From Omphalotus guepiniiformis (taxonomy: Eukaryota; Basidiomycota; Agaricomycetes; Agaricales; Omphalotaceae), in the NCBI GenBank assembly GCA_028554645.1, contig JAQOOI010000027.1:50051-114050 (forward strand): 64,000 bases of DNA. Direction: 5' to 3'. Within the stretch, counting starts at the first letter, position 1, and every line of letters begins with the position of its first letter. This document shows, piece after piece, positions 18,233-51,457 of the stretch. The translations under genes were made by a program, and so were the position numbers. Under the pieces are notes generated by a model that saw only the letters and a program-made list of their open reading frames with translations, made no database searches and was not told the origin of the DNA.

Positions 18233-19634
18233 TCAGAGAATGTCTGCAGATGGAAATGCATGGAAAGGAGCTGGATCATCAGCAGTACCTGGACCAGACT
18301 CCAAGGGACTCTGGTTGGCCCTGTAAGCCTTCTCCTTCTGTCTCCGGAGCAATTCCAGACGGGAAAACTCCTTGTAGGCGAATCTGTACTGAGAATGATG
18401 ATACTGAATGGCATGTTGATGAACACTGAGTTCTGTCTTCAAGAAGTTGGAAATTGATTGAAGAACCTCAGGAGAGAAGTGGTCCAAGTCCATGAAAGGG
18501 AACAGAGCAGTGATACGAGTCACAATCTCTTCTCCACTCTCCCGGAGTTTGCGCTCATCTGCAGGATAATTGAGTTAGATACTCGAAAAAGCTGCAGATT
18601 GGGTGACTACTCACGGTCTGTCTCCTCTCTAAGGTTGACGATTGGGCTCTCAATATGAGGCTTCTTCATGACAATCACCTTGTGGGGCTCAGGAATAGGT
18701 TCATTCTACACGAACATTAATAGTCAGTACATGAAACTGCATGAATATCTCTAGATGGAACTAAAAACTTACATCTTTGGGTCCAACTGAGGTAGCCTGC
18801 AAAGTTACCATGGTACATCAGTCTAGAGAAACGAATGAACAGTTCTGAACATAAATCTGCTTACCCTTGGAGAAGTGATTACTACTTTTTCCTTGGAAGA
18901 CTTATGAACTGTGGTAGTAGTGGAAGAACCTTTGGTCTTGTCCTTGCTAGAGTCCTTGTTATCCTTGTTGGGAGCGTGGATCGACGCAGAGAGCCCAAGA
19001 TAAGGTCCATCTGCCATCTGAGAAAAGAAAGACCATGTTGGGATTTGAGTTAGATACTCAGTAACCAAGGAGTTAGATACTTACAGTAACGTCTCCGTCA
19101 CCAGTAATGACCTCAATCTCTTCATCGTCATCATCATCATCCTCAATAAGTTCGGGAGTTTTAGCTGGCTACACACCGATAGGCAGTTAGATACTCGAAA
19201 TGAGAGGGATGGTCAATAAAAACGTACTTTGCGCTTCTTAGACCCACTAAAAGTCTCTCTGCGCTTTGCCAAGTCGTCCCGGAAAGCTTTAATGGCGGAG
19301 AAAGTGTCAGGTTCACCTACAGATGGGAACTTCTTGACTGCATCTGCGACCAGATTGACACCTTTGTCGAACAAAGTGAACGCTTCCTCGGACTTAGCAA
19401 CTGCATATGCAGGCAGAGACTTCTTCTGTAATAAGAAATTAAGTTAGATACTGGAGCTGGAATCAAAGATTGAACATTTACAAGATGGCTTGCAAGGGCT
19501 GTAATAAGCATCCCAAGCAGTTCAGTATCTGCATCTTTGGCCTCCATGGCTCCAGTAGCACGAGAAAGATATCATTGCGTTGTGGCAACCCACTCAGGAC
19601 GCTCAGGCCAAGTCTTGGGACCTTTAGGGGCCAT
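18233..19634 (-). pseudogene. R5 acc1: antisense accessory gene, one nonsense codon
   Basis: Spliced homologue of acc1 in R8 (54837-56238), antisense to R5 gag-pol. ATG is 19632-19634 (protein begins MAPKGPKTWPERPEWV); TGA is 18233-18235. Exons are joined by short GT-AG introns and include a 24-base micro-exon at about 18777-18800 coding ATSVGPKD. The C-terminus holds FMDLDHFSPEVL and a long His/Gln/Tyr-rich helix with coiled-coil character. A TGA in exon 1 (within CAATGATAT) replaces an arginine codon of R8, so this copy is probably inactive. Introns carry exact family words at 18572-18584 and 19047-19059. Function unknown; Lys/Arg and Asp/Glu tracts suggest a nuclear protein. Confidence 0.8.
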
Positions 19635-20489
19635 AACTGTAAAATATAGAGATAGAGAAATGATAAAAGTGGAAGGGTTGTAGAACCAAGTGATAGATGG
19701 TGCTGAGTCGTTCTGAATCTGCGCTGCACCTTTTATATCTGGTCTACCCCGTCTAAATCTGCAAGTTGGTCATTACTCCTATGCTGTTCAAACAGGCACA
19801 ATGAGGCCTAGCCAGCGTAGCAGATTGATCAACGGGGACGTTGAAGTTAATTTTACTTGGGGGGAGAGAGCACACAAATTTACAAGGCCAAAAATTTTGA
19901 ATTTTTGAAATTTTGAAATTTTGAAATTTCAAATATCTCAAATCTGGAGATCTAGACAGCTTTGACCGCAGAGGACTTAGCCGAATAGCATTGCCGAGTA
20001 ATCGAAAGCTCTCAACCTTGACAGAAAGGACTTATTAAATTCAATGTATCCTCAAAAAGAAATGATACTTATTGAAAATTGTGGGCTTAAGTCATTTAAA
20101 GAATTGTTTCCCTCTCGAATCGAGTTAGATACTCAATTTGAAGGAGACTCTCAAACTGATTTCTTATGTTTCACACCAGATTCATACCAAGAAAAACGAA
20201 ACCTATATTTTGAGCATGAAAGCTCAGTACTACTATGAAGATACTTCGACCTATACTACTATAAAGTAAGTACAGGGAGTATCTGGGAAAAAGCGATGTA
20301 TAAAAAAATTTTATATACTTGGGCAACCTGATGTGTTGAACACCAAGGCTACCCGCGACGAAATGCAAATGGATACGGCAGGTCCCAGCCAAGCGAAGAA
20401 AGCAACAGATCTGTGAGAATCGGGCTGAGAGATGGAGAAAGTAAAGGAATAGAGGGGTACGAACTATGCGTGCACCCGAGCCTTGAAAG
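19635..20489. other. R5 region between acc1 and acc2 (acc1 promoter)
   Basis: 855 bases without a gene. It holds the acc1 TATA box (19730-19737, minus), an AT-rich short tandem stretch of GAAATTTT-like units near 19890-19935, and an exact family word GAGTTAGATACTC at 20122-20134. No conserved ORF. Confidence 0.6.
19730..19737 (-). promoter_or_regulatory. TATA box of R5 acc1
   Basis: TATAAAAG on the minus strand about 95 bases upstream of the acc1 ATG. The same octamer precedes acc1 in R6 and R8. Confidence 0.6.
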
Positions 20490-22235
20490 TCACTCTGAGA
20501 GGGGATCGTCCCTCCCAGCTAGTGGACTGCTTTCTGGCACCAGGACTTTCCCGGCTGTCTCCTCCTCCAACTCGTCCTCCTTGTCTTTGTCCTCTTCGAC
20601 CGTTATCTGCGAGGCACTGACCGCCTGAGGCGATTCGTCAATGTCAGCTGTAGCAATGGGAGTGGAGCGAATATTGGAAGGGCCGGCTTGCTGCTCGACT
20701 TCTGGATCCACCACGACAAAACGACCTGCTTCATTCCTAGCGATGTAACTGGCCCGAGACACCAGATTGATGTCCCAACCGAGCGCGGTAGCTAGCAACT
20801 TTAGCTGCTTGTCGGAATAGTCAAACATTGGGTCGCCAGCCTGAACCTGATGTAAAACGGGACAAGGATCGCGGCACGAAGCCTTGATGTGTTCTTGATG
20901 CTGCAAGATCGTTCGGTGTGTACTCGTTCCATCACTCGCATCTGCGCGGAGACGCTGTTCTGCATGTCCTCGTAGGTGTCGATGAGAATCTGCAACTGTT
21001 CAGCTTCCTGAGCAACAACTAAGAGATGAAGAGTCTTTAATAAAAAGATATCTAGAGAAATGAGAAAGGGGGCTTACTGGCACTGCCGCTGCGAGCCAAC
21101 GTGTATGAAAGACAACGAAGCTGATCGCTGCCTTCCAAACCGTAGGACCAGCTGCAGGTGTGATTGTCCTTTGCGCAAGTCGCGCAGCGCCACTCGAATG
21201 TCTTGCTGTTAAGTTGGGAACGGCATTCCCGCCCTTCTGTGTGTGTACCACCGACGCAGGCAGCACAAATAGAGTCGCCGAAGAACTAAAGAGTGACGAA
21301 AAGAAAATTTAGCGGGTATTAATCTCGAGTCAGAGAGGTACTTACCCTGTCGAATGTACGATTAACCGAAACGAGCTGTTGTAAAGTAACAGGACGGCCA
21401 TAAGGCCATCCAAAAACAACACGGCCTGCAAAGGAGTCGTTAAACAAACGCTAGAAAAATGAAAACCCAAAAGATACTTACCGGGTACCTCTTCAAAGTC
21501 CTCCTTAGCGCGATTTTGAGGTGTTCGTCCATCTGAGCGCTAAAAAGAAGACATTATCAGTAAACAAATGCTGCAATAAAGAAGCGATGAGACTTACTTG
21601 AAGATTTGGGGCCTCGTAACGAGTGCCCGGAGCAAGAGAAACAGAAGATGTCGAAAAGTCAGCGCGAGAAGCCCACAAGGGAGCCTCGAAGTCGACGTTG
21701 AGATTGACGGGGGCCTTAGCACCCTCAGCCTTGACCGCTTTCTCCTCTTCCTTCTTCTCCTCTTCCTCGTCGCTGGATGCTGGGACTGTGACTGGAGTTG
21801 CCTTAGATCGCGTCTTTCGAGACGCTGGTTCATCGATCGGCTCTTCTACCTGCATCTTCCGAATCTTCGGTCGTGGCTTGACCACCTGTTTACCCTTGCC
21901 CTGTGTAAGAAAACATGAGAAAAGAATAAATAAATCTACAAAGAAAAAACGTACCTTTGAAGCCGCAGCTGCAGGCTTCTTACCCTCAGAAACGCGAGAC
22001 TTCTTGACCGGAGGCTCAGAGCTCTCGGACTCGAAGTCAGTATCATTGTTGTCGTTGTCGCTAAGCTCAGTCGATTCGGCAGTTGCTTCAACGTCGGAAA
22101 TCTTGCGCTTCAACTAGAAATGATAAGGATAAGAAATGACAACTTCAAACAAAAGAAAAAGACTTACTGAACGACCCGGTAAGGGCGTCACAGAGGTCTT
22201 GGCCTTTGGCTTTGACTTGGGCTTGGAAATAGGAG

Positions 22236-22239
22236 CCGG
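22236..22239. other. R6 target site duplication, left copy
   Basis: CCGG; the matching copy is 36772-36775. Joining across it restores the R5 acc2 exon 4 frame (SSKTP-APISKP). Confidence 0.93.
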
Positions 22240-23479
22240 TGATGTGCTTGGTATGGGGTATGAATGAGAAGAAGTGCTAACTAACTCGAATGAATCTATC
22301 AAACACTCAAAACACACACACAACACACAAAGACTTTTAAGTTCGTGGGGTTTGGGGGACCAACAAACTCTGTGAAGCGAATAAGGTTGTTGTAAGAGGA
22401 ACGCGAAGACACAGTCAAAACCGACACGGCACAGATAACTCTATGCTACACACCACTCAAACGAACTAACGCGTAACTTTAACAAATCACCGCGACCAGT
22501 GACTACAAACGATACAACAACCAGACGATTGTTGGGAGATGCCAGACGACTTCTCACTTAGTGGAGTTGGGTATAGGAGGATTTCAGAACTGCCAGACGA
22601 CGAGTTCAACGAGTGACCAGACGATCCACTCTTCTTCGCACTACACACACAGGCTCCGCGGTACCAGACGATCCCGCTTGTAAACACTTAGGCACACTGA
22701 CTTATGAACTAACGCGACGGTTAACACTTTAAAACTTCTAATCACTCAGAGGGACTTAAGCTTTTCCACACACAAATGCTATTAGCTCTATGGGGGGGCT
22801 CGGGAACCTGTCCTTCCTTGCCCAGGTTCTATTTCTTATATACAGTATTTCTATTTACATAGTACAAACAAATGTCGCGATACTTGACAGTTATGAGATA
22901 TATGGTGCATATGGTGCACCGCGTAGGGTAGGGATGAAGTATAGTACGCGGTAACAGGGTATCCTATATCGGTTTATAATCTTGCCGCTTTTAGAAAGTA
23001 TCGCGGTAGTTCGCTAACACTGTGTCTCCTTACGTGTTCTACTTCCGCGTCGTCGGAAGTACTTCGTGTTACATCGTACGTCTAGACCCTTCTGAGGCTC
23101 AACAGTGGTCATTAGATATGACTAGTGCACGGAGCTACTGCTACCTGGTTTCTAAGTCTGGCCTTCTGAGTAGTGCCGCGGTACTTCGTTACCTACGCGT
23201 TGGTTTATACAGTATTGGGGCCATCAAGTTATACACGTCGGACCTTAGAACAAGTGCCGCGACGCTTTACTTGAGTGTATACTTAGGTAATACCTACACT
23301 GAGAAGACCCATTTAGTGCCGTTCTACAGTCTTGTACACCTTTGTACACATATACTAGTGGTTGAATGTGCGTAATACACCGCGTAACTTAGGACTATAC
23401 AGTGTACTTAGTAGGTTTGTACTGGAGTGATCAATCCCGCGAGGCCAAAAATGGTAGTGGTATTCCTGCGGTCGTATCA
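22240..23479 (-). repeat. R6 3' LTR
   Basis: 1240 bases; on the minus strand TGATACGAC...GCACATCA. The TATA-like element on the minus strand is TATATAAG at about 22838-22845. Five copies of CCAGACGA (22521, 22542, 22593, 22617, 22664) lie downstream of it in the transcribed direction. Fifteen CGCG were counted in this LTR. Confidence 0.95.
22521..22671 (-). repeat. Five CCAGACGA repeats in R6 LTR
   Basis: Irregularly spaced identical octamers (TCGTCTGG on the element strand), starting at 22521, 22542, 22593, 22617 and 22664. The same set is in the other LTR. Possible protein or RNA-binding cluster; unproven. Confidence 0.6.
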
Positions 23480-23488
23480 TCTCCCCCT
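23480..23488 (-). promoter_or_regulatory. R6 polypurine tract
   Basis: AGGGGGAGA on the minus strand, directly abutting the 3' LTR: the expected plus-strand primer site. R5 (37857-37864) and R8 (51158-51165) share the GGGGGAGA core. Confidence 0.85.
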
Positions 23489-23860
23489 GACTAAAATATC
23501 GACTGTCCCAGTCGCTGGGGTCCTACTCAGGGTCTATCCTGGAAAGGCGCATCAACCTCCCTTTTCTGGATATCACAAACTTCTTTCTGACCCATGTAGC
23601 GCTCTCCCTCCTTCTTGTCACATCACATTCCATCACGTTGCCTTATTGGTAAATCGCCGCGTCTCTTCATTCCTCATCGTCCGGTTACGTTAGTTCCCGG
23701 ACATACCGGTTATTCAGTTAATGAATTGCCATCGCTTCTTTGTCAAAGCTGTATGTCGTACCCTGAATAAGTGTGTAATACATCAAACTCTTGCTCTCGC
23801 GTCTTCTAGGAATGGAACTTGATACTGGCACCAATCTGAGGACCCCATCGCCGCGAGGTG

Positions 23861-23867
23861 TATATAA
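23861..23867 (+). promoter_or_regulatory. TATA box of R6 acc2
   Basis: TATATAA, 58 bases upstream of the proposed acc2 ATG at 23925. Confidence 0.55.
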
Positions 23868-23924
23868 CCTTCAGTGCCCGGGTGTCGAACTTCAACTTTT
23901 TGCTCCCTCTTTCATCACTGGTTT

Positions 23925-26234
23925 ATGCCCATCAAAGCTGAACCCCTTGACTATAATTCTTTAATAGTAAGTGTCGCGGCCGCTCTTGGTGATCCCTTTC
24001 TTAACTTCCTTGGACAGGCTTTTTCACCCACACCTTCGGAGACTAAATCTATCATGCCCTCTCCTCGACCTTCAAACTCTCGCCCTCACAAACGACAACG
24101 CCGCGAGGCAGCCCCAGCACCTCTTCCTGGAATGTCGGAGCCTAACTCACAGCAGTCTATATCTGCTGCGGAGTTCGCTCTGCTTCAATACATCCGTAGC
24201 GGGCAACTGGCTGTCCAACCGACTGTGATTCCTACTTCCGCGGCGGCTTTGCCTTCACTCGCTTCGTCTTCGCGTCGTACTCCATCGCCTCCTCCTGCGG
24301 AGTCTCGTTCACACGTTCGCCGTGAGACGCTGAGAAAACTCGCGTCCAAGCGTGCTCGTTCTCGCGGTCAGACTTCTCATTTGGTACAACAGTTTCTTGT
24401 CCCTTCTTTTACCTTATACTTTTACTTGTCTCTTGCAGCTTCGCCCTGTCACCGCGGAAGATCGGGCGCAATACGATGCTGACTTTTTGGCCTTTAAGGA
24501 TGAGACCTACGATCTTAGCCCCGCGTCAGCTACTCCCGTTGCGCGTTCTCACCGCAAACATGGACATCGTCGCGTTGGTCCGGGAAAACGTCCTCCACCG
24601 TTGGACTTGGTACTATTTCTCTGTTCCTCCCTAATGCTTATTTTCTGACTTCGTCTTTTCTTAGTTCGATGATGAAGCTGTCGAGTCCGATATAGAGACT
24701 TCGTTTTCTAAGGAACGTCGTCGCGTTCTTTCTCGACGACGCGTGGACAGTGAATCTGACGCGGAGCCCATAGCTGAGGTTGTTCCTAGTGTCCCCGCGG
24801 ACTCTACTTCTTTGCCCGCTACCGCTCCTACTCCCTCTGCTGGCTCTCCCTTCGTAAGTTTCTTTTACAAATTCTCCGCGACTCTTTGTTCAAAACTCTG
24901 GCTTACTTAGGCTCATTCTCGATCGCCTCCGCCGGTTGACTTATCCGCTGGCTTTGGTCAGGACATGATAGAGGTGCCGCTGCCCGTTACCCCTCGTTTA
25001 CCACCTTCTCTGCGAGACGACGCGATCCCTCCTGCTCTTCTTTCCTCTGGGGTACCGGCTTCCTTTTCGCCATTAACCTCCATGACAGTCGTTCCCCCTT
25101 CTGCTGTTGCTGTTAGTCAACCGGGAGCTTCCGCAGCGCTGCCCGCGACTTCATCTCTACCTGAGGACCCAGCTCCTCCTGTAAGTCTTGCTGGTTTGCC
25201 CGTCGTCCAACACTCTTTCTAAAGGTCTTCTCCCTTTCAGGTGAAAGGCAAAGGTAAAGGTAAGAAGCGGGCCAATACCAAACCCGCGGCTACTACTATT
25301 CAAGAGGAGGGCCGATTCCTCACTCCTCCTCCTCAAATGGGTGATCCCGCGGACAATCGTCGATTTCTACGCGAAGTGGGGGGGTATCCTCAATACTGGT
25401 ACGACCATGTTTTCCCCGCGGCAGCGAAGATGGGCGCTGCAATTCCTCGCGACTCCTTGCCTATCACCAAGGGAAGTAAAGCCTCCGCGGCTCCTTCCTC
25501 TTCTCACGGCAACTTCGAGGCAGGTGTGCGGTGGTTTCAGCCTAACGAGGCTCCTTCTGCGCAAGCAATCAATTTCGATTTCCCTGGTCTATTGCCGCCC
25601 CTGATGACTTCTCATATCAAAATGTTTCAATCCGTGGCCAAGAGCGTCAATCTGGTACGTGATCTAGCTTCCTGTACCGCGGCACTTTATTCTGACTTTC
25701 TACTTTTCGTTGCTAGCCTTCTCTTCGGTGCAGCTCTTGCGTCGTTCATGGCAAACCTTGTGTCTTCGTGGCACCTGGCGAGTCCTGTAACGAGTGCTTG
25801 AGTAAGAAGGACTCGGCTTGTACATTTCGCTACGGTATACGGAAGATCGCGCTCGAAGATGATGCAATGCACAACCGCAGCCTCTTCTCTGTTCGCCGTA
25901 TGTATTTCTTTCTTTTGCTTGCTTTTCTCCTCCTAACTTCTAGTTTTCAGATGCTCTATCTCTTCAACACGAGGCCGCGACGCTTTTTGAAGACCTGGAT
26001 CATATTGCCAAAGCGATGCATGGGGTTCAGCGTAAGGCGGAAGGCAAGGTCGCGGAGCTCGTCGACATTATTGCTGCGGGGTATTTTAATTTTGGCAAAG
26101 ATTACCTGGCCCAGCTTCGACTTAGCGGGGACTTGGCCAAGGTGATTATTGATGAACAAATTCAACCCAAAATCGACGCGGGGGAGCTTTCCTCCATAAA
26201 CCCGGATTCTCTTCACCATGCATATCAGAACTAG
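23925..26234 (+). CDS. R6 acc2: antisense Zn(II)2Cys6-like protein
   Basis: Inferred exons: 23925-23966, 24018-24383, 24439-24609, 24665-24853, 24911-25180, 25241-25654, 25717-25897, 25951-26234. They total 1917 bases, 638 residues, all introns GT-AG and 51-62 long. The protein starts MPIKAEPLDY, then has a long disordered part with basic patches (RPHKRQRRE) and a Lys/Gly tract (VKGKGKGKKR). Exon 7 begins with a cysteine cluster CSSC-x6-C-x8-CNEC-x7-C, which fits the spacing of fungal Gal4-type zinc clusters (C-x2-C-x6-C-x5-12-C-x2-C-x6-8-C). The last exon is a helical, probably coiled-coil segment. The likely role is DNA binding in the nucleus; the target is unknown. It is antisense to gag-pol, next to the 3' LTR. 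Overall plan matches acc2 of R5 and R8. Confidence 0.8.
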
Positions 26235-26330
26235 TGATCACTGCATGCGTTCATCGTTCTTGTCCAGGCCCCGCGGTAATAAAAGCTTTTAGTATCGTAG
26301 TATTGTCATATCGCGGATCCTGTATATTCT

Positions 26331-26634
26331 TTGTTACATGAAAATCATCACTGCTTTTGTTTCATGGAGATTGAATCTTTAAGCTGTATGACACTTTCTT
26401 TGTTATATAAGATTTTTCAGAATTCAAGCGATCCTACGCGGCACTTAACTCTACGCGGTACATTCGAGCGATCCTTACTTCTTTGTTACATGAAAATCAT
26501 CACTGCTTTTGTTTCATGGAGATTGAATCTTTAAGCTGTATGACACTTTCTTTGTTATATAAGATTTTTCAGAATTCAAGCGATCCTACGCGGCACTTAA
26601 CTCTACGCGGTACATTCGAGCGATCCTTACGCGG
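26331..26634. repeat. 152-base tandem duplication
   Basis: Two adjacent, apparently identical units starting TTGTTACATGAAAATC at 26331 and 26483, each ending in CGAGCGATCCTTAC. It lies upstream of acc1 in its promoter region. Confidence 0.9.
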
Positions 26635-26817
26635 TACTTTTCTACTCCTGTGACCCTTCCCCATCTTTGAAATTGCAACTGTCCCCAGTTGTCTTGAACA
26701 CTCGTGTCCTTTGGTAAAGTACCATATGGTCCGCCGCGTCCACTTTGAAAGTAAGTATCGCGGACTTAGAATTCTACACTGACAAGTTTCCTCGTAGTCA
26801 TGACTGCCCTGGCCTGG

Positions 26818-26825
26818 TATAAAAG
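26818..26825 (+). promoter_or_regulatory. TATA box of R6 acc1
   Basis: TATAAAAG, 46 bases upstream of the acc1 ATG; the same octamer precedes acc1 in R5 and R8. Confidence 0.65.
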
Positions 26826-26863
26826 GCCCTCCAAACCCTAAGTTCTTCCTATCGGATTCACTT

Positions 26864-28302
26864 ATGTCTACTGATACTTCTTCTGTTGACGTCCAGTTTC
26901 TCGTGGAAGAGGTAGCACCTCTTTATAAGTCGTTTAGCGAGCGTCGAGCCAAACGTGGTGCTGACGATGCTAATCGCGTCGCGATGTCTTGTGCACAAAA
27001 ACTCGTAAGTTTCCTACTGCGCTGACTCCCTTCCCGTGCCTTACTTCGCTCTTTTTAGCTCGAGCTCTGGAAAGCTCACCCTGATGCCGCGCTGGCTAAC
27101 GCTGACATTCGTACTTTCACTCTGTTCTTCTTTGAACAACTGCCGCGGGACCCAGTTACCGCGAAGTATACACCAACTCATCATTTACTTGGTCCGTACC
27201 GCGGTAAATGTGTTCAGTTTGGTAAACCCAAGGAGGTTCCCAAAGTCGCCGCGGCTGCTCCTGTTCCAACTGCTGTAACCCCAGTGCCCGTCAAAGGCAA
27301 AGGTCGTGTTCGTACTAGCCGCCGCGTAAGTAATCAGTTCTTTTTCTTGAATAACCACTGGTACTAAAACTTTTTCTTAGATTCGCAAGCGTATTGCATC
27401 CCAAGCTCGTATTGATAGTAGTGACGAGGAGGTTGACGACGACGCGGCGGGTAGCGATATTGCTATGGGTGACGATGAATCCCCCTCTATTGCAGATTCC
27501 ACTACTAATACCACGGTAGGTCGCCACCCTACCCCGAGCCAGCTTGCTCTGTTGCTAAAACTATGTACCTCGCTTCAGACTCTCGACCTCGCAGCAGTTG
27601 AAGAAGTTACCCGCGTTGCCCCCTTTACTCCAAAGGTTGAGCCTAGCGTCGCGGCAGTTAAAAGGGTACGACCACCATTCCTTCTCCCAATGTTATTCTG
27701 ACTTAACGTTCCTTTCATAGCCTCACGCGTCGACTAATCACCCCGTAAGATATCTCCACTTTTCTGAGATACCACGCATGCTTATTACTTCACGGCAATA
27801 CCTTAAGGCAGTTGCCGCGGTGGATAAGAGTACCATCAATCCTCCTGCCAAGAAAGCTAAGATGGAGGTGGTTAGTGTCGCGGCAGCTCCTCCTACTTGG
27901 GCGCACAACTTCTCTATGCTCGATCCACCTCTGGCACCCCCTAGTACGTGTCACGTTTTCATACTGCCGCTAGCGACTTTTCAACTAACCTATCTTTTGG
28001 TAGACCCTGTCTCCACTTTCTCTAACTCGGTTGTGCAGTCACTCGTTGATCGTGCCAATCTCGCGGTGCTCGCACCCGTTAGTGGGCCTACTGATCGTAG
28101 TCTCACCATGCTGGAGTTCGAGACTCGCTCTAAACTTATCGCGGTCAACCATCAGATCAGTCTCCAGCTCCAAATGCGGGATTTGCTGATGAAGAGCTAC
28201 CAGAGCATCGCGTCGCAGCAGAAGGAGCTGGTTAATAAAACTAACGTTCCCCTTATCGATATGACTGGCGACGAAGATATGCCCTCCGTGACTGATACTT
28301 GA
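26864..28302 (+). CDS. R6 acc1: antisense accessory protein with micro-exon
   Basis: Inferred exons: 26864-27004, 27059-27325, 27381-27665, 27721-27744, 27808-27943, 28004-28302. They total 1152 bases, 383 residues. Exon 4 is a 24-base micro-exon (PHASTNHP); the intron after exon 5 is phase 1. The N-terminal 130 residues look folded and helical (FLVEEVAPLYKSFSERR, then LELWKAHPDAALAN). The middle has basic (KGKGRVRTSRR) and acidic (DSSDEEVDDD) tracts. The C-terminus is a long amphipathic helix with many Gln and Leu. No known family recognised. Likely nuclear and oligomeric by composition only. It converges on pol with 220 bases between stops. acc1 of R8 has the same exon plan and similar length but little sequence identity. 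Confidence 0.78.
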
Positions 28303-28522: not shown

Positions 28523-31500
28523 TTACTGAAAGATCTTCGGCTTCGATATCCAGTGCTTCGCGTCGTATACTGAAACGTCCGCGTGAATTTCACCATCTAG
28601 GTCCGCTTGATCGTGTTCTACGGATAAATCTTCTTCTTCTTCTTCTAGACCTTGTTCAATTCTCAACAAGCCATCTTCTGACAAACCAATCAGCTCACTT
28701 AGGTTCTCGGGGAGTTCAATGTGCGACCGTGGCCAATATGGAATTACGCGGAAGGCTCCAATTTTATTCTGGAACACCGCACCATTTAGGTCTGCCACAA
28801 TGTAACTGCCACCTGTGGTACGCCTGAGTACTACCATAGGTCCTAAATAGCGCGGCTTTGTTTTAGAGTTCAAAGATTTTTCAATCTGAGTATTCCTAAC
28901 TAAGACCAAACTACCTGGCTTAAACACGTAGTCTTTAATAACATACTTATACTCTTTTTCAAACCTCAACAACCGTGACCTTTTCTCACGTGTTACGCGT
29001 TCCCGCAATTCAACTATGTGCTTCGCGTGCTTAGCTAATGCTTTCGCCCGTAGTCCAATTAGTTCCGCGTCACTTATGAAATGATCAGGATATTCTACAA
29101 GCCATGTTGCCTCAACGATATCAAAAGGTAGCGAGGGGTGCGCACCAGTTACTGCGAAGAATGGGGAGCACCCAAATCTCTTTCTTATGGTACACCTATC
29201 AGCCCACATTACTAAGTAGAAATAGTAAAACCATTTTGAATCGTCACCTCCCGCGGCCTTTATGAGACTGTGTCGCACATCATAATGCGCGTGTTCCACG
29301 ATACCGTTGGCTTGGGAGTTATAAGGTGATATGCGAATACCGCGTACGCCATATTTCTTCTCTAACCATTCCAACGCCTTTAGAAAAGGTCCGCCATTAT
29401 CTGTAACTATCTCTATAAGACAGCCCCAGCGGCAGATAATTTCTTCCCATAACCACTGCCCAATCGCTCTTGCGGACTCTGCTTTCAACGGTCTTCCTTC
29501 CATCCAGCCGGTTAACGCGCACCTACCATGTACAATCAGCTTGTAGCCATTCGACGCCGGCATATACATGGTGTCAGCGTGAATTTTCTGAAAGATTGAC
29601 GGTGTCTTCGTCTCGGTAGGAGGAATCCTGATCTTTGTCTTTTGTCTTACTTGGCACGTATGACAGGTCTTCACATACTCATAGATGTCTTTCTCCATTT
29701 CAGGCCACCAAAAGCGTTCCATAAGTAAGGATTTAGTAGCGAAGAAGCCGCGGTGCCCCAGACTATCATGACAAGCATGGATCATGGCGACGCGACGCGA
29801 CTTCTCAACTACCAGCTTATGTTTTGCCTCAATTCCACGTCGATAGAGTTTTTCGTCTTGTATAAAGAAGTTCCGCGCTAACCTTAAAAAGTTCTTGAAG
29901 CGTTTGTTATTCTCATAGCCTACAGGCCTCTTAGAAGTGTCTGTTAGCCATTTGAAAACCTCCGCGACTGTTTTATCTTGGTTTATCGCTCCCTTCGATC
30001 GCTTAGACTCATCATACTCTGTTTCGTCAATATGCTCTGGTGGCTCCTCGAGTTCTGGTACTTCACTAGCCAAGTTCGCGGCTACAAACTGTTTTACTTC
30101 TGGTATGTCGCGGAACTCTCGTTCTTGCTTATAAGCACGCGTCAATTCTTCCTTAAAGTCGTCTACCGACGCGGCTAAACCAGTCATATAATTACTTTTC
30201 CATTCCTCTTTCTCATCAACTAATACTTGCGCGTAACCATGCTTAGAGTCAATCTTATCTACAAACTCCTCTAATTTATAGGGTTCTTGAACTTCACCAT
30301 CTTCAGGATTGTCATACTCATCGTCTCCTACTTGCTTATCCCGCCGTGATAGTCCATCAGGTCCGTGAACCTTGCCTGGTACGTGCTTCAGTTTAAAATG
30401 AAACATCATGATCGACTCTATCCACCTATTTATCGCGGCGTTTGGCATTTGATCAGGATGCTCTAACATGCCTTTAATGTACTTCGCGTCAGTTTCGATT
30501 ATAAGGTTGCGAATACCAAACAACCAATACTGGCACGCTCGTAACGCGCGATACAAACCAAACAACTCCCGTTTCGGCTGTGAAAACCTAGCTTCGCGAT
30601 CACTTAGTGTAATCGAACCGAATCTGGAGTAGAACCTTCGTCGCGGATTCTCTGGATCCACTTGACAAATATAGAACCCAACCGCTTTCCACGATGTATC
30701 TACTGCCAATATAACAGGGTCTTCCACATCATACTTTAGTGGTCGTAATGCCTTGCTATTCTTTACTGCCTCTTTCAACTTTGCCAACGCGTCACTTTGC
30801 TCTTGTCGCCATTCGAACGGAATATCTTTACGCGTAAATCGGGTTAAAGGCTCCGCGATCTTTGCATAGTCTTTGACGAACATTCTTACTAGTCCCGCGG
30901 TGCCTAAGAATGGTCTTATATCCTTCTCTTCTAGGATATTCTCAGGTCCACCCCAGTTGGTAATAGTTTTCGCTCGTTCCGGGTCGATCTCTCTTCCTTC
31001 TCGTGTACACCTATGTCCGACCACGGTAATCTCGCTTTTACACAATACAGCTTTGGGGCCTGAGAAAGTCCCACCACAGTACTTCATTCTTTGAATGACT
31101 CTATTCATATTGGTGAAATGTTCCCAAATAAACCTCCGTATCCCATCATTACCAGGAATGGTATCGTACGTACCATCTTCACTTTGATAAGTCGTTTCAG
31201 GACCGCGTACAGGAACATCATCGATGTATGGTTGCGTAAACTCCGGGATCTCTTCTTGTAATATGTGTGTTACATCATCGTGGAAGATTGGTACTGAATT
31301 CGTCCATCCCATCGGTAGTGTTACTAACCTCAGGGCTCCAAAGGGAGTCTGGAATGTAGTTAAGTCTCGCGATGCTATTGCCAACTCTCTTTCATCATAG
31401 CCAACATATAAATCTAGAATTCCTCCACAAGCTCTACCACAGAATTTCTCCGCGAGCTCTTCAGTAGCAGGCGGTATACCAGAATGTGCTATTGTTACCG

Positions 31501-32470
31501 CGTTCAACGGTTCCAAACTATGTACTAGTCGAATACTCTTTCCGTCTTTCTTTAACACCGCGAACCACTTCGATCGGTAAGACGAGTTCGATGGTTTGTA
31601 AACTCCCGCGTCAATCTTTCGTCTAACTGCCGCGCATACTTCATTAAAAATACCAGGGGGAATAGGAATGTTCCTCTCAACCCAAGGTGTATGAGGTATC
31701 ACGGGCATCTCTACTGAAGGAAAGAAATCTGTTCTGAATCTTCCGCGTTCACTGTCGTCCCACGCGAACCCTTTCTCTTGCTGCATCATCATATGATGCA
31801 TCAACTTCCGTTCTTCTGGCCAAAGGAATTCTTCCTTATGTATCTCGTCTATTATCTCTTTACGTTCCTGAGTATACCTACCAGTCGGCGTGAATTCTGG
31901 AGGATTAGGCGAAAGCTGCGGCATATCAGCCAATGGATCTCCTTTAATCTCTCTTATGATTCTAAACTTCGATGGTAAATCTCCTAGAACAGGGCGTGTT
32001 TTCAACGCGACAGGTTTGTATTTCTTCCCTGCCAAGATACTAATTGGTTCGTAACGTTCCTTCCACAGCCGCGACGCGTGCCTCCTCACTTGATCTTTCA
32101 TATCAGGGGATACATCAAGCATCGTGATGCTCCTTACATCAAACAGGGGAATTTGCTGTAACTCTTCTACGCCGTCTTCTAGCTCTACTTCTTGCACCGT
32201 GAAATTTGCTTGAGAGTACGCGGCAGGATTTTGCGCTCCATACACCGAACTCAAATAGGATCTCAATACGGGTCTCGTCGTTTCTTTATCACTTTTTAGA
32301 TCAATATACTTTTCCGCGGCAGATAAGTATAGATCGCGTAACTCTCGCTTCTCAAACTTTGATTTTTGCTCTTCGTTTATATCTGCAAATACTACATCAC
32401 TTATGCCAATGGGAATACCTTCGTCATTTAATTCAAAAACCACCGCGGCTTCTCCTTGATCTGGGATCAA
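28523..32470 (-). CDS. R6 pol: reverse transcriptase, RNase H, integrase
   Basis: About 1315 codons, TAA at 28523-28525. RT has the fingers-palm run FAVLKKDGKSIRLVHSLEPLN, then LDLYVGYDER (most Ty3 elements have a SGYxQ-like version), PFGALRLVTLPMGWTNS and the catalytic YIDD near residue 410. A spacer of about 40 residues follows YIDD. RNase H shows AVDTSW, KRELFGLYRAL, ETDAKYI and GPDGLSR. Integrase has an HHCC finger (HDSLGH...CHTCQ), a D-D-E core (HADTMY, VTDNGG, Glu in GIVEHAH) and a C-terminal barrel-like segment (PRYLGPMVVLRRTTGGSY). No chromodomain. Pol overlaps the protease ORF by a few bases in the -1 frame without its own ATG, so frameshift or reinitiation is expected. Confidence 0.95.
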   Translation of the reverse strand: MIPDQGEAAVVFELNDEGIPIGISDVVFADINEEQKSKFEKRELRDLYLSAAEKYIDLKSDKETTRPVLRSYLSSVYGAQNPAAYSQANFTVQEVELEDGVEELQQIPLFDVRSITMLDVSPDMKDQVRRHASRLWKERYEPISILAGKKYKPVALKTRPVLGDLPSKFRIIREIKGDPLADMPQLSPNPPEFTPTGRYTQERKEIIDEIHKEEFLWPEERKLMHHMMMQQEKGFAWDDSERGRFRTDFFPSVEMPVIPHTPWVERNIPIPPGIFNEVCAAVRRKIDAGVYKPSNSSYRSKWFAVLKKDGKSIRLVHSLEPLNAVTIAHSGIPPATEELAEKFCGRACGGILDLYVGYDERELAIASRDLTTFQTPFGALRLVTLPMGWTNSVPIFHDDVTHILQEEIPEFTQPYIDDVPVRGPETTYQSEDGTYDTIPGNDGIRRFIWEHFTNMNRVIQRMKYCGGTFSGPKAVLCKSEITVVGHRCTREGREIDPERAKTITNWGGPENILEEKDIRPFLGTAGLVRMFVKDYAKIAEPLTRFTRKDIPFEWRQEQSDALAKLKEAVKNSKALRPLKYDVEDPVILAVDTSWKAVGFYICQVDPENPRRRFYSRFGSITLSDREARFSQPKRELFGLYRALRACQYWLFGIRNLIIETDAKYIKGMLEHPDQMPNAAINRWIESIMMFHFKLKHVPGKVHGPDGLSRRDKQVGDDEYDNPEDGEVQEPYKLEEFVDKIDSKHGYAQVLVDEKEEWKSNYMTGLAASVDDFKEELTRAYKQEREFRDIPEVKQFVAANLASEVPELEEPPEHIDETEYDESKRSKGAINQDKTVAEVFKWLTDTSKRPVGYENNKRFKNFLRLARNFFIQDEKLYRRGIEAKHKLVVEKSRRVAMIHACHDSLGHRGFFATKSLLMERFWWPEMEKDIYEYVKTCHTCQVRQKTKIRIPPTETKTPSIFQKIHADTMYMPASNGYKLIVHGRCALTGWMEGRPLKAESARAIGQWLWEEIICRWGCLIEIVTDNGGPFLKALEWLEKKYGVRGIRISPYNSQANGIVEHAHYDVRHSLIKAAGGDDSKWFYYFYLVMWADRCTIRKRFGCSPFFAVTGAHPSLPFDIVEATWLVEYPDHFISDAELIGLRAKALAKHAKHIVELRERVTREKRSRLLRFEKEYKYVIKDYVFKPGSLVLVRNTQIEKSLNSKTKPRYLGPMVVLRRTTGGSYIVADLNGAVFQNKIGAFRVIPYWPRSHIELPENLSELIGLSEDGLLRIEQGLEEEEEDLSVEHDQADLDGEIHADVSVYDAKHWISKPKIFQ

Positions 32471-33672
32471 TTCCTCGAAGCTGCTGAAAAACCCTGAGTC
32501 TGTTCCTTGTCTTTGCTTATAGGTACAGAACCTTTCCCTCTCTCATAGGTAGGTACAACAGCTCGCTTCTTAGTGTTAGGGTCCTGAATAACGAGGTCCT
32601 GCGTTCCATCTGCATGATTATCCACTAAACTCTCCGTGATCGTGTCAAAAGGCCGTCCCAGTAGCAATTCATATGCGGGGTCTCGAATTACATGTACTTG
32701 TAAGTACACGGTGATTCCGCCTAGTAAGAATGGTACATTACGCGCCAATCCCAAAGACTTCTCAACACCCTTGTTAGCCGATTGCATAAAGATTACTATG
32801 TCCGGGTCCCACGATAAACCTGCTTCGCGAGCTCTTTTCTCCGATGTAGAGATAATCTGTGAACCCGAGTCTAGTAGACTTTCGATCTTCGCGGTACCAT
32901 TTACCAAAGGATACACGCATCGAAGCGACTCTGAATCTCTTGCCACGTAGATCTGAATTGGGTTATCTTTGCTTCCCAGGCTTTCCACGTACTGTTCAAC
33001 TGGATCGCTAATCACAACCGCTCCTGCTGGAAGATCTCCTTCCGCCTGTTTCAGAACAAAAACTTCCGCGGGGACATTAAGGTCAGCTAACGCGACTGTA
33101 TTTGCTGTTACGTGAACCTCTCCTACATTTTCCTCGCTAAAAGGTAATAGGGGGCTTTTGGCTAGGATCTCTCTCAAACCTCCCGCGGTCTCTTCAGGCT
33201 TCAATTTGACTCTTGACTTGATCGTTCCTCTGAGTGAAATTTCTGATTCCACTACTGTTTCTTCCGCGTCAGGATGTTTAGTTAACGGAATAACAGGAGA
33301 CTCCGCAGCCTTCTCATTCCTTGTCTTCCAAATTATCCCCCTCGGGTTCTCTAACCGCTCTTTCTGAGCTTTCAGTTTCTCTTGCTCAGTTGGCGAATAC
33401 GACACATCAGGTACGTTCGCGTAAGGAACCTCTGGTACGCGGCTCTTCTTCACTACTGTAGGTAGCGGAGGCATCTCGACACCATCGAATCTCAAACGTT
33501 TTTCCCTCTTGACCAACTCCTTATACTTATCTTTCTCTAGGCTCGCGTCCTTCTCAGGTTCCGCGTCCTTTTCTTTCCACAACCGTCGTTCATTACCCTT
33601 GTTTTCAGTATCATTCTCAGGTGCCGCGGCCCTAACAGGATTTTTCTCTTTTGTAGGGGCCTGGCTTTCCAT
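32467..33672 (-). CDS. R6 retropepsin-type aspartic protease ORF
   Basis: 401 codons from ATG 33670-33672 to TGA 32467-32469. The active site LLDSGSQIIST is at about residue 266. Upstream is a charged, Lys/Glu-rich, probably disordered region; downstream is the C-terminal half ending ELLLGRPFDTI. The ATG lies 8 bases past the gag stop in the -1 frame, as in family I, and that frame is open upstream across the gag stop. A Gag-protease fusion made by frameshifting at GGGTTTT is the likely product. Confidence 0.9.
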   Translation of the reverse strand: MESQAPTKEKNPVRAAAPENDTENKGNERRLWKEKDAEPEKDASLEKDKYKELVKREKRLRFDGVEMPPLPTVVKKSRVPEVPYANVPDVSYSPTEQEKLKAQKERLENPRGIIWKTRNEKAAESPVIPLTKHPDAEETVVESEISLRGTIKSRVKLKPEETAGGLREILAKSPLLPFSEENVGEVHVTANTVALADLNVPAEVFVLKQAEGDLPAGAVVISDPVEQYVESLGSKDNPIQIYVARDSESLRCVYPLVNGTAKIESLLDSGSQIISTSEKRAREAGLSWDPDIVIFMQSANKGVEKSLGLARNVPFLLGGITVYLQVHVIRDPAYELLLGRPFDTITESLVDNHADGTQDLVIQDPNTKKRAVVPTYERGKGSVPISKDKEQTQGFSAASRN

Positions 33673-33680
33673 CCTCGAAC

Positions 33681-35444
33681 TTACCGAAAACCCTCCTCGA
33701 ACCTTCCTTTCTCATTGTTACTAACTGCCACGTTACTTATTGAATCTCTTGCCGACCCTCGAATATAGGCCGCGCTGAGATTGGATTCTAACACCCTTTC
33801 TTGAGCACGCTTCGCCTCTTCATATTCTTGCCAAACTCTAGTGTACTGTTTATTGTACGACTCGACCTCCTCTAGTTGCATCTGTAGTACCTCAACCTGA
33901 GAAGCTTGTACTTTCTTTTCAGACAGTCTTCGGTCCACAAAGTCTTTCTGAGGAGGCCCATTTGGAGCTTTCTGTGCTACTGGCTCTCCATCTGGCATAC
34001 AAGTGATCCCTTCTTTCAAAATGATCTTTCCATCATCTACGTACTGCTTGCGTACCATACATTGCCCTGCCATATGTCCGTTTAAGCCACAGAACCAACA
34101 CGTCGCGGCTCGAAAGTAGTCGGGACGGTTGTCATTCAACGCGGTTCTCCCGTAGTCCCGCGGCGCCATATAGGGTATACGTTCTGGATGCCTGGTACCG
34201 CTACTCGTTCCAGGTGCCGCGAGCTTTAATTGCTCTAGCAGTTTACCCATCATTTCTTCTTCTCTCGCGGCTCTCTGGGTAAGGTTCTTTGTTTGAATCG
34301 TGATTAGATCTTTCAATTCCGCCACCCATCCTTCCGTTTGCTCATGCTTCACTTTTTCTACTTTCTTTCCTCTATCTTCCTTCGCGGACCTTACGTTCCC
34401 AAGACTAATTACTTCCTCAACCTGAGATCTCGCGTTAAATTCTGCCTCGTCCAGAATCTCTTCTGCTGTATAGGCATCATCTCTCGGTCTAGCCTCTGCA
34501 GGTGGGTTCGCACGCTTTTGTAACTTCAAAGTCAACGTGATGGATCTCCAAAATTCATCTTCAAACATTCCGCGGAGGACTCTGACAATTTCTCTGTTAG
34601 TATACAACGCGGTCGTAGCGTAGTGCTTAAGGAACGGCCTTAGGGTATTCCTCATTCTTAATACATCTTCGAGATCTTCCATCGTTATATTCTTATACTT
34701 CTTCGCGGCTCTTTCGAATTTTGCGAAGGAGAAAGTTCCCTCGTCCGATCCTCCATCATAACTCTTCAAAATCTCGTCGCGGAACTCGATAAACGTCCCT
34801 TCCTCTTTCTCGTACGTAGGCAACGCCTTCCATTGTTCTCTTATAGTTGCGGGTAGGTAACGCAACGCGACTGATTTCTTATCCGCTTCTTCCTCTATTT
34901 TGAAATCTTGGATAATATCCTCAATCTCCCCCAGATAGTCTCTGACGTCGTCTACATCATGATCGCGACGCAAATCTGGTGCTCCACGTTCTCTTCTCCT
35001 CGGAATCTTATCCATAGCCGGCATTTTTATGATATTTTCTTGAATTATAGGTAAATTAGGTGCAGAGTTCGGTGAAATATGTAAATCAAATAGAAGTGTG
35101 TGGACTTCGGATAGTTCCTCGTCCGAATGAGAATGTCTATCAATAGTTGGTGGGACTACTGAGTTTCGACGCGACGGTGGGTCTGGCCTAGGAAATTGAA
35201 TTGAAGTACCTTCTCCGTAATCAGATAGTTCTTCGTCAAAGTTCCGCGACTGTCTAATACTCGAATCTTCCGCGTCAACTACGTTAATCGATTCTCGGGG
35301 TTGAGCAACAACTTCAGGCTGTGACTTCCTGTAGCTACTAACTCTTTTGATTGCCTTTGCACGTGCTAACGACTCTCTGGTATTCTCTACCGTTGAAGGC
35401 CGTGAACTTCGTCTAGACGTTTTGTCTGATTGTTGGTTAGACAA
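33681..35444 (-). CDS. R6 Gag
   Basis: An open frame of 587 codons ending TAA 33681-33683. The first in-frame ATG is near 35024 (MPAMDKIPRR). The roughly 140 codons before it are open but start without ATG, as in family I. A capsid-like part follows (DVRDYLGEIEDIIQDF to about residue 320), then a linker and a CCHC knuckle CWFCGLNGHMAGQC near residue 455, then a Glu/Gln-rich coiled-coil-like tail. It forms particles and packages RNA. Confidence 0.9.
   Translation of the reverse strand: MSNQQSDKTSRRSSRPSTVENTRESLARAKAIKRVSSYRKSQPEVVAQPRESINVVDAEDSSIRQSRNFDEELSDYGEGTSIQFPRPDPPSRRNSVVPPTIDRHSHSDEELSEVHTLLFDLHISPNSAPNLPIIQENIIKMPAMDKIPRRRERGAPDLRRDHDVDDVRDYLGEIEDIIQDFKIEEEADKKSVALRYLPATIREQWKALPTYEKEEGTFIEFRDEILKSYDGGSDEGTFSFAKFERAAKKYKNITMEDLEDVLRMRNTLRPFLKHYATTALYTNREIVRVLRGMFEDEFWRSITLTLKLQKRANPPAEARPRDDAYTAEEILDEAEFNARSQVEEVISLGNVRSAKEDRGKKVEKVKHEQTEGWVAELKDLITIQTKNLTQRAAREEEMMGKLLEQLKLAAPGTSSGTRHPERIPYMAPRDYGRTALNDNRPDYFRAATCWFCGLNGHMAGQCMVRKQYVDDGKIILKEGITCMPDGEPVAQKAPNGPPQKDFVDRRLSEKKVQASQVEVLQMQLEEVESYNKQYTRVWQEYEEAKRAQERVLESNLSAAYIRGSARDSISNVAVSNNEKGRFEEGFR
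33687..33693 (-). promoter_or_regulatory. Canonical -1 slippery heptamer at end of R6 gag
   Basis: On the minus strand the gag frame reads GAG GGT TTT CGG TAA. G GGT TTT fits X XXY YYZ exactly, one codon before the stop, and the -1 frame is open into the protease ORF. Confidence 0.7.
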
Positions 35445-35531: not shown

Positions 35532-36771
35532 TGATGTGCTTGGTATGGGGTATGAATGAGAAGAAGTGCTAACTAACTCGAATGAATCTATCAAACACTC
35601 AAAACACACACACAACACACAAAGACTTTTAAGTTCGTGGGGTTTGGGGGACCAACAAACTCTGTGAAGCGAATAAGGTTGTTGTAAGAGGAACGCGAAG
35701 ACACAGTCAAAACCGACACGGCACAGATAACTCTATGCTACACACCACTCAAACGAACTAACGCGTAACTTTAACAAATCACCGCGACCAGTGACTACAA
35801 ACGATACAACAACCAGACGATTGTTGGGAGATGCCAGACGACTTCTCACTTAGTGGAGTTGGGTATAGGAGGATTTCAGAACTGCCAGACGACGAGTTCA
35901 ACGAGTGACCAGACGATCCACTCTTCTTCGCACTACACACACAGGCTCCGCGGTACCAGACGATCCCGCTTGTAAACACTTAGGCACACTGACTTATGAA
36001 CTAACGCGACGGTTAACACTTTAAAACTTCTAATCACTCAGAGGGACTTAAGCTTTTCCACACACAAATGCTATTAGCTCTATGGGGGGGCTCGGGAACC
36101 TGTCCTTCCTTGCCCAGGTTCTATTTCTTATATACAGTATTTCTATTTACATAGTACAAACAAATGTCGCGATACTTGACAGTTATGAGATATATGGTGC
36201 ATATGGTGCACCGCGTAGGGTAGGGATGAAGTATAGTACGCGGTAACAGGGTATCCTATATCGGTTTATAATCTTGCCGCTTTTAGAAAGTATCGCGGTA
36301 GTTCGCTAACACTGTGTCTCCTTACGTGTTCTACTTCCGCGTCGTCGGAAGTACTTCGTGTTACATCGTACGTCTAGACCCTTCTGTGGCTCAACAGTGG
36401 TCATTAGATATGACTAGTGCACGGAGCTACTGCTACCTGGTTTCTAAGTCTGGCCTTCTGAGTAGTGCCGCGGTACTTCGTTACCTACGCGTTGGTTTAT
36501 ACAGTATTGGGGCCATCAAGTTATACACGTCGGACCTTAGAACAAGTGCCGCGACGCTTTACTTGAGTGTATACTTAGGTAATACCTACACTGAGAAGAC
36601 CCATTTAGTGCCGTTCTACAGTCTTGTACACCTTTGTACACATATACTAGTGGTTGAATGTGCGTAATACACCGCGTAACTTAGGACTATACAGTGTACT
36701 TAGTAGGTTTGTACTGGAGTGATCAATCCCGCGAGGCCAAAAATGGTAGTGGTATTCCTGCGGTCGTATCA
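35532..36771 (-). repeat. R6 5' LTR
   Basis: 1240 bases, same ends as 22240-23479. The only difference noticed is GAG/GTG near 23096 and its counterpart near 36388. Right flank is CCGG (36772-36775). Confidence 0.95.
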
Positions 36772-39347: not shown

Positions 39348-39384
<37 letters not shown>

Positions 39385-39629: not shown

Positions 39630-39630
39630 G

Positions 39631-46022: not shown

Positions 46023-46053
46023 TGAGTGTTAATTGGACAGTCTTTCCCATGCC

Positions 46054-46114: not shown

Positions 46115-46126
46115 AATAACAGTCTA

Positions 46127-51165: not shown

Positions 51166-51457
51166 AAAGTAAAATAAGATCGACCTCGATCGTCCATGAT
51201 GGCCAATATCGAGTTAGATACTACTTTTTCAGGTAGATAGTCACAGAAGTCAAGTCAATTGCTTTACTATCACGTTGACACCTTGTCACAGTGAACTGCC
51301 GTTAGGCAGACTTCTCGATTGAAAGACCGATCAGTACGCTTTTCACTCGGCATGCCTCGGCAATGCTCAATTCGGAGAAACCCGATGTCTGCATCCGTCG
51401 AAGTTCAGCCAAATATGGAAGACCCCTTTCGTTCTTCACATCTCACTGAGTCTCCCT
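51166..51457. other. R8 spacer before acc2
   Basis: About 290 bases, presumed acc2 promoter. It contains a near copy of the family word (GAGTTAGATACTA, about 51205). No clear TATA box. Confidence 0.5.

Follow-up and report, generated by a model that had tools for sequence, protein, structure and literature searches.

Why would an LTR retrotransposon keep two intron-containing genes, oriented against gag and pol, in front of its 3′ LTR? The question is raised by R6, an element in the window (the whole 64-kb stretch of DNA analysed here), in which two spliced antisense genes, acc1 and acc2, occupy the stretch from pol to the 3′ LTR. A preliminary description had proposed that such a paired, intron-rich antisense cassette is conserved in two families of elements. 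The cassette proved to be real, and the families number at least four.

Architecture of R6 and its antisense genes

R6 is a Ty3/gypsy LTR retrotransposon, with an LTR pair, the domain order protease–RNase H–integrase zinc domain, a PPT-like tract and a putative PBS. Its LTRs are 1240 bp each and differ at 1/1240 sites, CCGG flanks the element at both ends, the PPT-like tract AGGGGGAGA precedes the 3′ LTR, and the putative PBS shows TGG two bases past the 5′ LTR. Pfam matched, in order along gag-pol, a sub-threshold protease, RNase H and Integrase_H2C2; RVT_1 was not reported in the pol frame at E 0.1, and the RT is therefore assigned by its position. The features of R6 are:

22240-36771, gag-pol sense on the minus strand: whole element, Ty3/gypsy
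35532..36771 (-): 5′ LTR, pairing with 22240-23479
28523..35444 (-): gag, protease and RT-RNase H-integrase frames, from ORFs and Pfam, in Ty3/gypsy order
26864..28302 (+): acc1, 7-exon model of 362 aa, or 383 aa if 27745-27807 is retained
acc1 exons (+): 26864-27004, 27059-27325, 27381-27515, 27579-27665, 27721-27744, 27808-27943, 28004-28302
26657..26700 (+): second copy of the module, before acc1, with inverted repeat CAACTG/CAGTTG
23925..26234 (+): acc2, 8 exons, 638 aa, GT-AG introns and an open frame
acc2 exons (+): 23925-23966, 24018-24383, 24439-24609, 24665-24853, 24911-25180, 25241-25654, 25717-25897, 25951-26234
25717..25896 (+): Cys6 exon of acc2, C-x2-C-x6-C-x8-C-x2-C-x7-C
23482..23520 (+): module upstream of acc2, a 3′ polypurine tract (minus strand) with short inverted repeat CGACTG/CAGTCG
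22240..23479 (-): 3′ LTR, 99.9% identical to 35532-36771

The acc1 gene lies tail to tail with pol, 220 bp from the pol stop, and TATA-like boxes were found upstream of all four cassette genes inspected. The purine tract of the module before acc1 is degenerate in family II, to which R6 belongs, and an Rfam scan of the 64-kb window gave no matches. The segment 27745-27807 of acc1 is a 63-nt in-frame stretch that is identical in three copies, in which most other introns are variable; its retention may therefore be right, and only then does the R6 protein reach the 383 aa given in the preliminary description, rather than 362 aa. The 24-base micro-exon reported earlier belongs in R6 to the 362-aa model only, and if the segment is retained it is certain in R8 alone.

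The acc1 protein features basic patches, an acidic SIM-like stretch and a long predicted C-terminal helical hairpin, which corresponds to its C-terminal exon. A Foldseek search with the hairpin returned 14 matches (best E 4.4), none of them usable. Pfam at E 0.1 gave no family for the acc1 or acc2 protein of R6, and hence no TRP28 (PF04195) in these R6 proteins. The acc2 protein consists of a long Ser/Thr/Pro/Ala-rich N-terminal part, a Cys6 domain of zinc-binding type and a C-terminal exon. Its six cysteines are invariant in 6 sequences from four families. The canonical Zn2Cys6 spacing is C-x2-C-x6-C-x5..12-C-x2-C-x6..8-C, which family II fits, whereas the first loop is too long (8-10) in families I, III and IV. 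Against Pfam Zn_clus (PF00172) the domain stayed under the cut-off of 21 bits in every family (R6 11.3, the family II variant type C 11.2, family III 8.9, unreported for IV and I). A PDB search with the domain found no significant relative (best E 0.075), and the AlphaFold model of the exon was poor and unusable (mean pLDDT 48.7).

The same two-gene layout had been described for R6 and for two family I elements of the window, R8 and R5:

54837..56238 (+): R8 acc1, 7 exons, 340 aa, 24-nt micro-exon 55673-55696
51457..54006 (+): R8 acc2, start at 51457 or 51650, Cys6 exon 53210-53417
18236..22239 (-): R5 acc1 and the C-terminal portion of acc2, interrupted where R6 inserted

The layout is alike in R8 and R6, but R5 is cut because R6 sits inside its acc2, which resumes at 36772, beyond R6. 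The R8 acc1 frame, with the expected 340 aa, is open at 7/7 loci compared (R8, locus L021, included), and all introns are GT-AG at 6/7. As for acc2, the reported length of 638 aa stands for R6, and the 658 aa of R8 are unconfirmed, since comparison with R5 shows the frame apparently interrupted near 51880.

Distribution and conservation of the cassette

The acc1-acc2 pair accompanies four or more pol families of the host genome and is thus not private to R5, R6 and R8. Long-frame pol copies were taken to be those whose frame reaches 1285 aa or more. Searching the 9 kb downstream of each for acc in antisense, we found a match in 55/57 copies listed from four families (II, 21/21; III, 13/15; IV together with two of I, 21/21). 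In a separate list of long-frame family I copies, 39/40 had antisense acc1 and 31/40 both genes. Intact copies mostly lacking the cassette, which would have told against the earlier claim, were thus not seen, and its retention by most long-frame copies rules out idle hitchhiking. Incomplete cassettes do occur: both genes were found in 5/11 copies of the R8 subfamily, and a single acc2-less structure is common to five family I copies whose pol frames measure 1364 aa; acc2-less, acc1-truncated copies have multiplied.

The dN/dS check proposed earlier indicated purifying selection on acc1 and acc2 (omega 0.076-0.186). Together with spliced frames that were found again in other copies and intron phases that agree across families (all 0 except the last, which is 1), this rules out chance ORFs. 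The families were correctly described as distant in gag-pol and nearly unrelated in the cassette. The pol identity of family II to the others is 46-47% over the C-terminal 630-680 aa (62-65% in a 500-aa stretch), its acc1 has no significant sequence similarity to that of other families, and its acc2 is similar only to that of family III (E 7e-4 to 2e-3). Profile-profile comparison of family II with the others was not usable (acc1 P 0.36, acc2 E 0.04). Homology of the cassette across families is accordingly argued from position, orientation, intron phases and the Cys6 exon, the sequence similarity of family II to the rest being marginal.

Exchange of acc2 and family-specific DNA words

The acc2 of family II comes in types A, B and C, of which A and C were compared. 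Their dS is about 2.2, as against 0.023 for the flanking acc1, and within the swapped part the Cys exon is best conserved (83% vs 47-56% for the other exons). These sequence comparisons indicate that acc2 is an exchangeable module. Because types A and C adjoin nearly identical LTRs, a change of word, in the sense described below, does not explain the diversification of acc2 within family II.

Each of two families is dense in a short word of its own, CCGCG in family II and the quite unlike, AT-rich GAGTTAGATACTC in family I, although the single word enrichments are post hoc because many k-mers were scanned. On both strands, CCGCG occurs 140 times (74/66) in R6 (14.5 kb), as compared with 5 in R7 (8.9 kb), 8 in R8 (14.6 kb), 5 in the family III copy L047 (8.5 kb) and 3 in the family IV copy L048 (8.9 kb); CCGCGG has 27 sites in R6 and 0 in each of the other four. 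The density of CCGCG is above the order-1 expectation as well, and R6 pol has 32 sites where synonymous-codon shuffling predicts 7.2 +/- 2.7. In acc2, 26 sites are found in type A and 28 in type C, of which 4 are shared, so that density is kept despite turnover. Within family II, introns have 5.3 sites per kb, below the 11.5-14.7 of exons. The family I word has 327 occurrences in the genome vs 0 for its reversed control; its core, AGTTAGATAC, is missing from the acc2 gene and acc1 exons of R8 and thin in the R8 LTR. Family III words are modest (CCGGA, AATAATG), family IV words are weaker than those of I and II, and the cassette-less R7 shows no enrichment of family I or II words. In a decayed copy, C-to-T change reaches 0.202 at CpG vs 0.127 at other C/G sites (1.6-fold). 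Matches to DNA methylase (two) and RdRP are present in the host genome.

Possible role of the cassette

We tentatively favour, as quite possible if short of probable, that acc1 and acc2 are regulators that act in trans in the nucleus, recognise the element that encodes them and work in the way of VANC anti-silencing proteins. Antisense promoters belonging to the two genes would drive them, and the products would act in trans on copies of the same family; acc2 would recognise the short DNA word filling its own family, acc1 would be its partner, and together they would prevent silencing of the element or keep it open to transcription, as VANC proteins do in plant VANDAL transposons. For the acc proteins we infer zinc binding, nuclear location, DNA binding, a target word and an anti-silencing or activating effect. 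In favour of this reading are the conservation and purifying selection of the genes, the word density of families I and II with its turnover in II, the Cys exon as the best-kept exon of the swapped part, and the host matches to DNA methylase and RdRP; the sub-threshold Cys6 domain, the modest words of family III and weaker ones of IV, the lack of the family I core in the acc2 gene and acc1 exons of R8, the lower density of sites in family II introns, and the divergence of acc2 beside near-identical LTRs speak against it. That acc2-less copies could multiply would follow from help given in trans by complete ones. A more specific proposal, which we hold to be doubtful but worth stating, is a probably fungal Ty3 clade with two-protein self-recognition, in which acc2 would read a word distributed over the entire element, its coding regions too, would protect or activate its own family only, and would move between near-identical elements as a specificity module bounded by the duplicated polypurine-tract/hairpin modules, forming a VANC/VANDAL counterpart of independent origin.

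It is rather unlikely, in our estimate, that acc1 and acc2 are replication helpers of the retroviral accessory kind (particle assembly, nuclear import, cDNA handling), with the words read by a host factor unrelated to the cassette. Accessory genes usually sit in this slot, from pol to the 3′ LTR, the genes are conserved and under selection, and the C-terminal exon of acc1 is a predicted helical hairpin, all of which would suit helpers; yet the copies without acc2 and with truncated acc1 have multiplied (which help in trans would permit too), the basic and acidic composition and the Cys6 domain suggest nuclear work, and the words are strongly enriched in two cassette families, not in R7. The antisense orientation with its own TATA-like boxes, the RdRP matches and the dsRNA-mediated control raised in a review of plant antisense ORFs would agree with a self-limiting unit, in which gag-pol expression is held down, and copy number with it, by a repressor protein or by the antisense RNA itself. 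We consider this unlikely, since pure antisense RNA needs no intact, spliced and selected frames, and the acc genes lie beside gag-pol with no overlap. It seems quite improbable that CCGCG became dense as a side effect of mutation or chromatin, without serving as a protein target: the word is CpG-rich and the decayed copy shows mild CpG loss, but the density is absent from other families of the same genome, it exceeds order-1 and synonymous expectations, and family I has its different AT-rich word.

Four families within a single genome retain the unit, its genes are under selection, acc2 is exchanged as a module, and the word is a candidate for its DNA target, so the role of acc1 and acc2 can be put to direct test. 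Should the word indeed be what acc2 reads, sequence-specific self-recognition would have arisen in retrotransposons as well, and the pairs of protein and word might serve as DNA readers.

Comparison with known systems

Plant LTR elements with antisense ORFs in this position have been described, and the function of these extra genes is left open in the parts consulted of a review and a 2025 study (PMC11963269, PMC7264820). By these accounts, the plant ORFs (Retand-type) share with the cassette their place, orientation and a suggested nuclear or DNA-binding role, and their region holds family-specific tandem repeats, which may be likened to the family words (PMC11963269, PMC7264820). The cassette differs in having two genes, both spliced (6-8 exons in the models), in a host that is probably fungal to judge by its short introns and gene content, in a Cys6 exon where the plant ORFs have TRP28, and in the modular exchange of acc2. 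Neither plant paper uses the word "intron" (PMC11963269, PMC7264820), and "antisense" is absent from the main text of a paper on fungal LTR elements (PMC3248453); a limited literature search found no paired, spliced antisense cassette in fungi. HTLV-1 HBZ is likewise encoded antisense in a retrovirus, its product is nuclear (as is presumed for the acc proteins), and its antisense promoter lies in the 3′ LTR (PMC11963269, PMC7264820). It is one gene, and the cassette is two.

VANC of the Arabidopsis VANDAL DNA transposons is also a TE-encoded, spliced and fast-evolving protein, and VANDAL elements are dense in a family-specific short word, introns included (PMC5735166). In contrast, the cassette belongs to an LTR retrotransposon, is antisense and has a second gene, and its word, the presumed target of acc2, is strand-symmetric and also present in coding DNA; the VANDAL word is mainly non-coding, whereas the family II word is sparser in introns than in exons.

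With the fungal Zn2Cys6 (Gal4-type) regulators, family II shares the cysteine spacing of the canonical pattern. The usual half-site of Zn2Cys6 proteins is CGG, and this triplet is contained in the family II word. Unlike in Gal4-type proteins, the Cys domain of acc2 lies near the C-terminus and falls below the Pfam cut-off, and the first loops are 8-10 residues long in the other families.

Two antisense genes in R6

The Ty3/gypsy element R6 is young and looks complete. It belongs to family II, one of at least four pol families (here I-IV) of such elements in this genome, and is inserted inside an antisense gene of its family-I relative R5. The 5-kb interval between its pol and 3′ LTR contains two spliced genes, acc1 and acc2 (the cassette), both on the strand opposite to gag-pol:

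22240-23479 and 35532-36771, LTRs of R6 (14.5 kb, minus strand), mismatched at 1 of 1240 positions
23925-26234, opposite strand to gag-pol, acc2, adjoining the LTR
26864-28302, opposite strand to gag-pol, acc1, tail to tail with pol across a 220-bp gap
28523, end of R6 gag-pol

In the gene models, the introns of both genes are 51-63 nt long with GT-AG ends. The preliminary description read acc1 as a 383-aa protein, which may be the true reading, because the short intron at 27745-27807 has a weak acceptor and an identical sequence in three copies. The spacer between acc2 and acc1 (26327-26630) carries an exact 152-bp tandem duplication with CGCGG words, of which the related copy L046 apparently has a single unit.

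Distribution of the cassette

The genome (42.5 Mb, 80 contigs) was searched with the pol and acc proteins; the R6 pol search gave 86 copies, scored out of 411 first-look candidates, and the counts are lower bounds. Among these 86, an antisense acc match within 9 kb downstream accompanied long pol frames (≥1285 aa) in 21 of 21 copies of family II, 13 of 15 of family III (one of the two misses has an acc match 11.7 kb away) and 21 of 21 of families IV/I. For shorter frames the figure was 17 of 29, one of the 17 lying beside an acc match from another family.

A separate family-I list held 56 copies of at least 88% identity, taken from 86 matches listed in a second search, the other 30 belonging to families III and IV. 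At least 39 of its 40 long-frame copies had an antisense acc1 within 3 kb, and at least 31 of the 40 also had acc2 within 7 kb; both genes were found in at least 26 of 29 R5-type and at least 5 of 11 R8-type copies. Of the R8-type copies, L024 (identical with L049) and L028-L031 form a group of five with one shared structure: they lack acc2 and the first two acc1 exons, retain a 1364-aa pol frame and are 99.9-100% identical over 848-849 bases. This structure is a derivative that multiplied without a full cassette of its own, as would be expected if the acc proteins act in trans. It also warns that no cassette is required in cis.

A cassette-less element also lies in the window:

38868-47741, R7, Ty3-like, 8.9 kb, pol 29% identical to R6

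The search with the acc proteins gave no match of note inside R7. Its gag-protease frame carries DUF4100, and its LTRs are rich in GA repeats.

Relationships among the cassettes

Families I, III and IV are pairwise 67-70% identical in pol and, in the aligned parts, 31-33% in acc1 and 23-31% in acc2 (E 2e-13 to 2e-36). Between family II and these three, pol is 46-47% identical in the C-terminal 630-680 aa (62-65% within a 500-aa stretch), whereas acc1 has no significant match, acc2 reaches E 7e-4 to 2e-3 with family III only, and a profile comparison of family II with the other families was not significant. The family II cassette and the others are united by position, orientation and gene structure. 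With splice sites chosen by us, intron phases are 0 throughout and 1 for the last intron in the acc1 models of four families and the acc2 models of families II, III and IV; in R8 acc2 just the last intron was read, by eye. In the Cys exon of acc2, the six Cys and a single Lys are the sole residues unchanged across six sequences from four families. An acidic, SUMO-interaction-like stretch recurs in acc1 of all four families (family IV judged by eye). A basic patch, K-K/R-x-R/K-I/L/M-E, is also recurrent in all four.

An antisense ORF in the interval from pol to the 3′ LTR is an established feature of plant elements. Such ORFs occur in 97% of Retand clusters, where they carry a TRP28 domain thought to be DNA-binding (PMC11963269), and a review gives their function as unknown (PMC7264820). 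The open-access text searched yielded no fungal case, so the acc1/acc2 cassette, which had seemed new in the preliminary description, is taken here as a new variation on this known placement.

Selection and exchange of acc2

Three acc2 types exist within family II: A (R6), B (such as L046) and C (L045). Their three pairwise comparisons gave omega values of 0.076, 0.159 and 0.088 for acc1, the A-C value being based on 9 changes, and of 0.153, 0.171 and 0.186 for acc2, where A-C and B-C are near saturation. Among the fetched copies as they stand, a sample of best-scoring loci that includes R6, the acc2 frame was open in 4/6 of type A, 3/6 of type B, 2/4 of family III and 4/4 of family IV. The broken acc2 of four copies of two types (L012, L015, L018 and L020) have their first stop at a common codon, 119.

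Type C is 98-100% identical to R6 from the LTR to about 23.9 kb and 47-69% identical in acc2. Identity is 85-89% across the spacer and the initial part of acc1, and 97-100% over the remaining acc1 and the compared pol end. Because acc2 has diverged while its flanks are near-identical (dS 2.22 for acc2 vs 0.023 for acc1), acc2 has been swapped between otherwise near-identical elements. In each of the five elements compared, a copy of a module stands on either side of the acc2 unit:

23482 and 26657, duplicated module sites
51160 and 54603, duplicated module sites

Such sites are also present in L047 and L048, and across the four families the module precedes each of the two acc genes. On the acc strand the module reads CTCCCCC plus an A-rich stretch, followed by a perfect inverted repeat; the opposite strand carries the polypurine tract. 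Of the two copies, one is the 3′ PPT; the second, whose polypurine tract is degenerate in family II, is found 201-245 bp upstream of acc1 in R6, R8 and families III and IV. In stretches picked by eye, inverted repeats with 5-7-bp arms were found at 10/10 sites (total 60; the highest of 2000 shuffles reached 35), and the arms differ in sequence between sites with complementarity kept. The internal second polypurine tract may favour exchange of the acc2 segment during reverse transcription. The second module copy is internal and central-PPT-like, and the sense-strand hairpin loop is GGGA or GGAA in 7/10.

Family-specific words

K-mer scanning revealed short strings, or words, dense within single families. 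CCGCG occurs 140 times on both strands of R6 (74/66) and 3-8 times in each of four comparison elements or stretches (8.5-14.6 kb), and CCGCGG 27 times and 0, respectively. Per kb, CCGCG in family II reaches 9.7 in the LTR, 4.5-15.9 in spacers, 11.5-14.7 in exons and 8.1-8.5 in gag-pol, and is lower in introns (5.3); R6 pol contains 32, against 7.2 ± 2.7 in 150 synonymous-codon shuffles. By locus, the density is 7.8-14.6 in family II, 4.0 in the decayed copy L009 and 0-1.1 in L001-L008, eight loci whose reverse transcriptases are of other kinds. Between acc2 of types A and B (83% DNA identity), 18 of 26 sites coincide. Because only 4 coincide between types A and C (26 and 28 sites; 57% DNA identity), the density is largely renewed, not inherited.

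The family-I word, GAGTTAGATACTC, occurs 327 times in the genome and its reversed control 0 times. Its 10-base core lies in R8 mainly in acc1 introns and gag-pol, with none in the acc2 gene, and has a few matches in L003 and L047. Family IV is enriched in CTCGA and CTAGACC, family III modestly in CCGGA and AATAATG, and R7, without a cassette, in a GA repeat.

A possible role for the acc proteins

The word is constant within family II, and there the Cys exon is better kept than any other exon of the swapped part of acc2 (A-C 83% vs 47-56%); between families its identity is 15-24%. Because this exon is kept within family II with a Zn2Cys6-compatible spacing, and the word contains CGG, acc2 would be a natural candidate reader of the family word. 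This mechanism fits imperfectly: family III has no strong word, the word also lies within coding DNA, and the LTR word is constant although the acc2 types have diverged. VANC proteins are the precedent: the YAGTATTAY word bound by VANC21 is abundant in the VANDAL that encodes it and scarce elsewhere among elements (PMC5735166). The putative partner of acc2 would be acc1, with its basic patches and a predicted helix of 53 residues (mean pLDDT 75.6). Two matches to DNA methylases and several to RdRPs in the host genome represent putative machinery that the acc proteins could counter.
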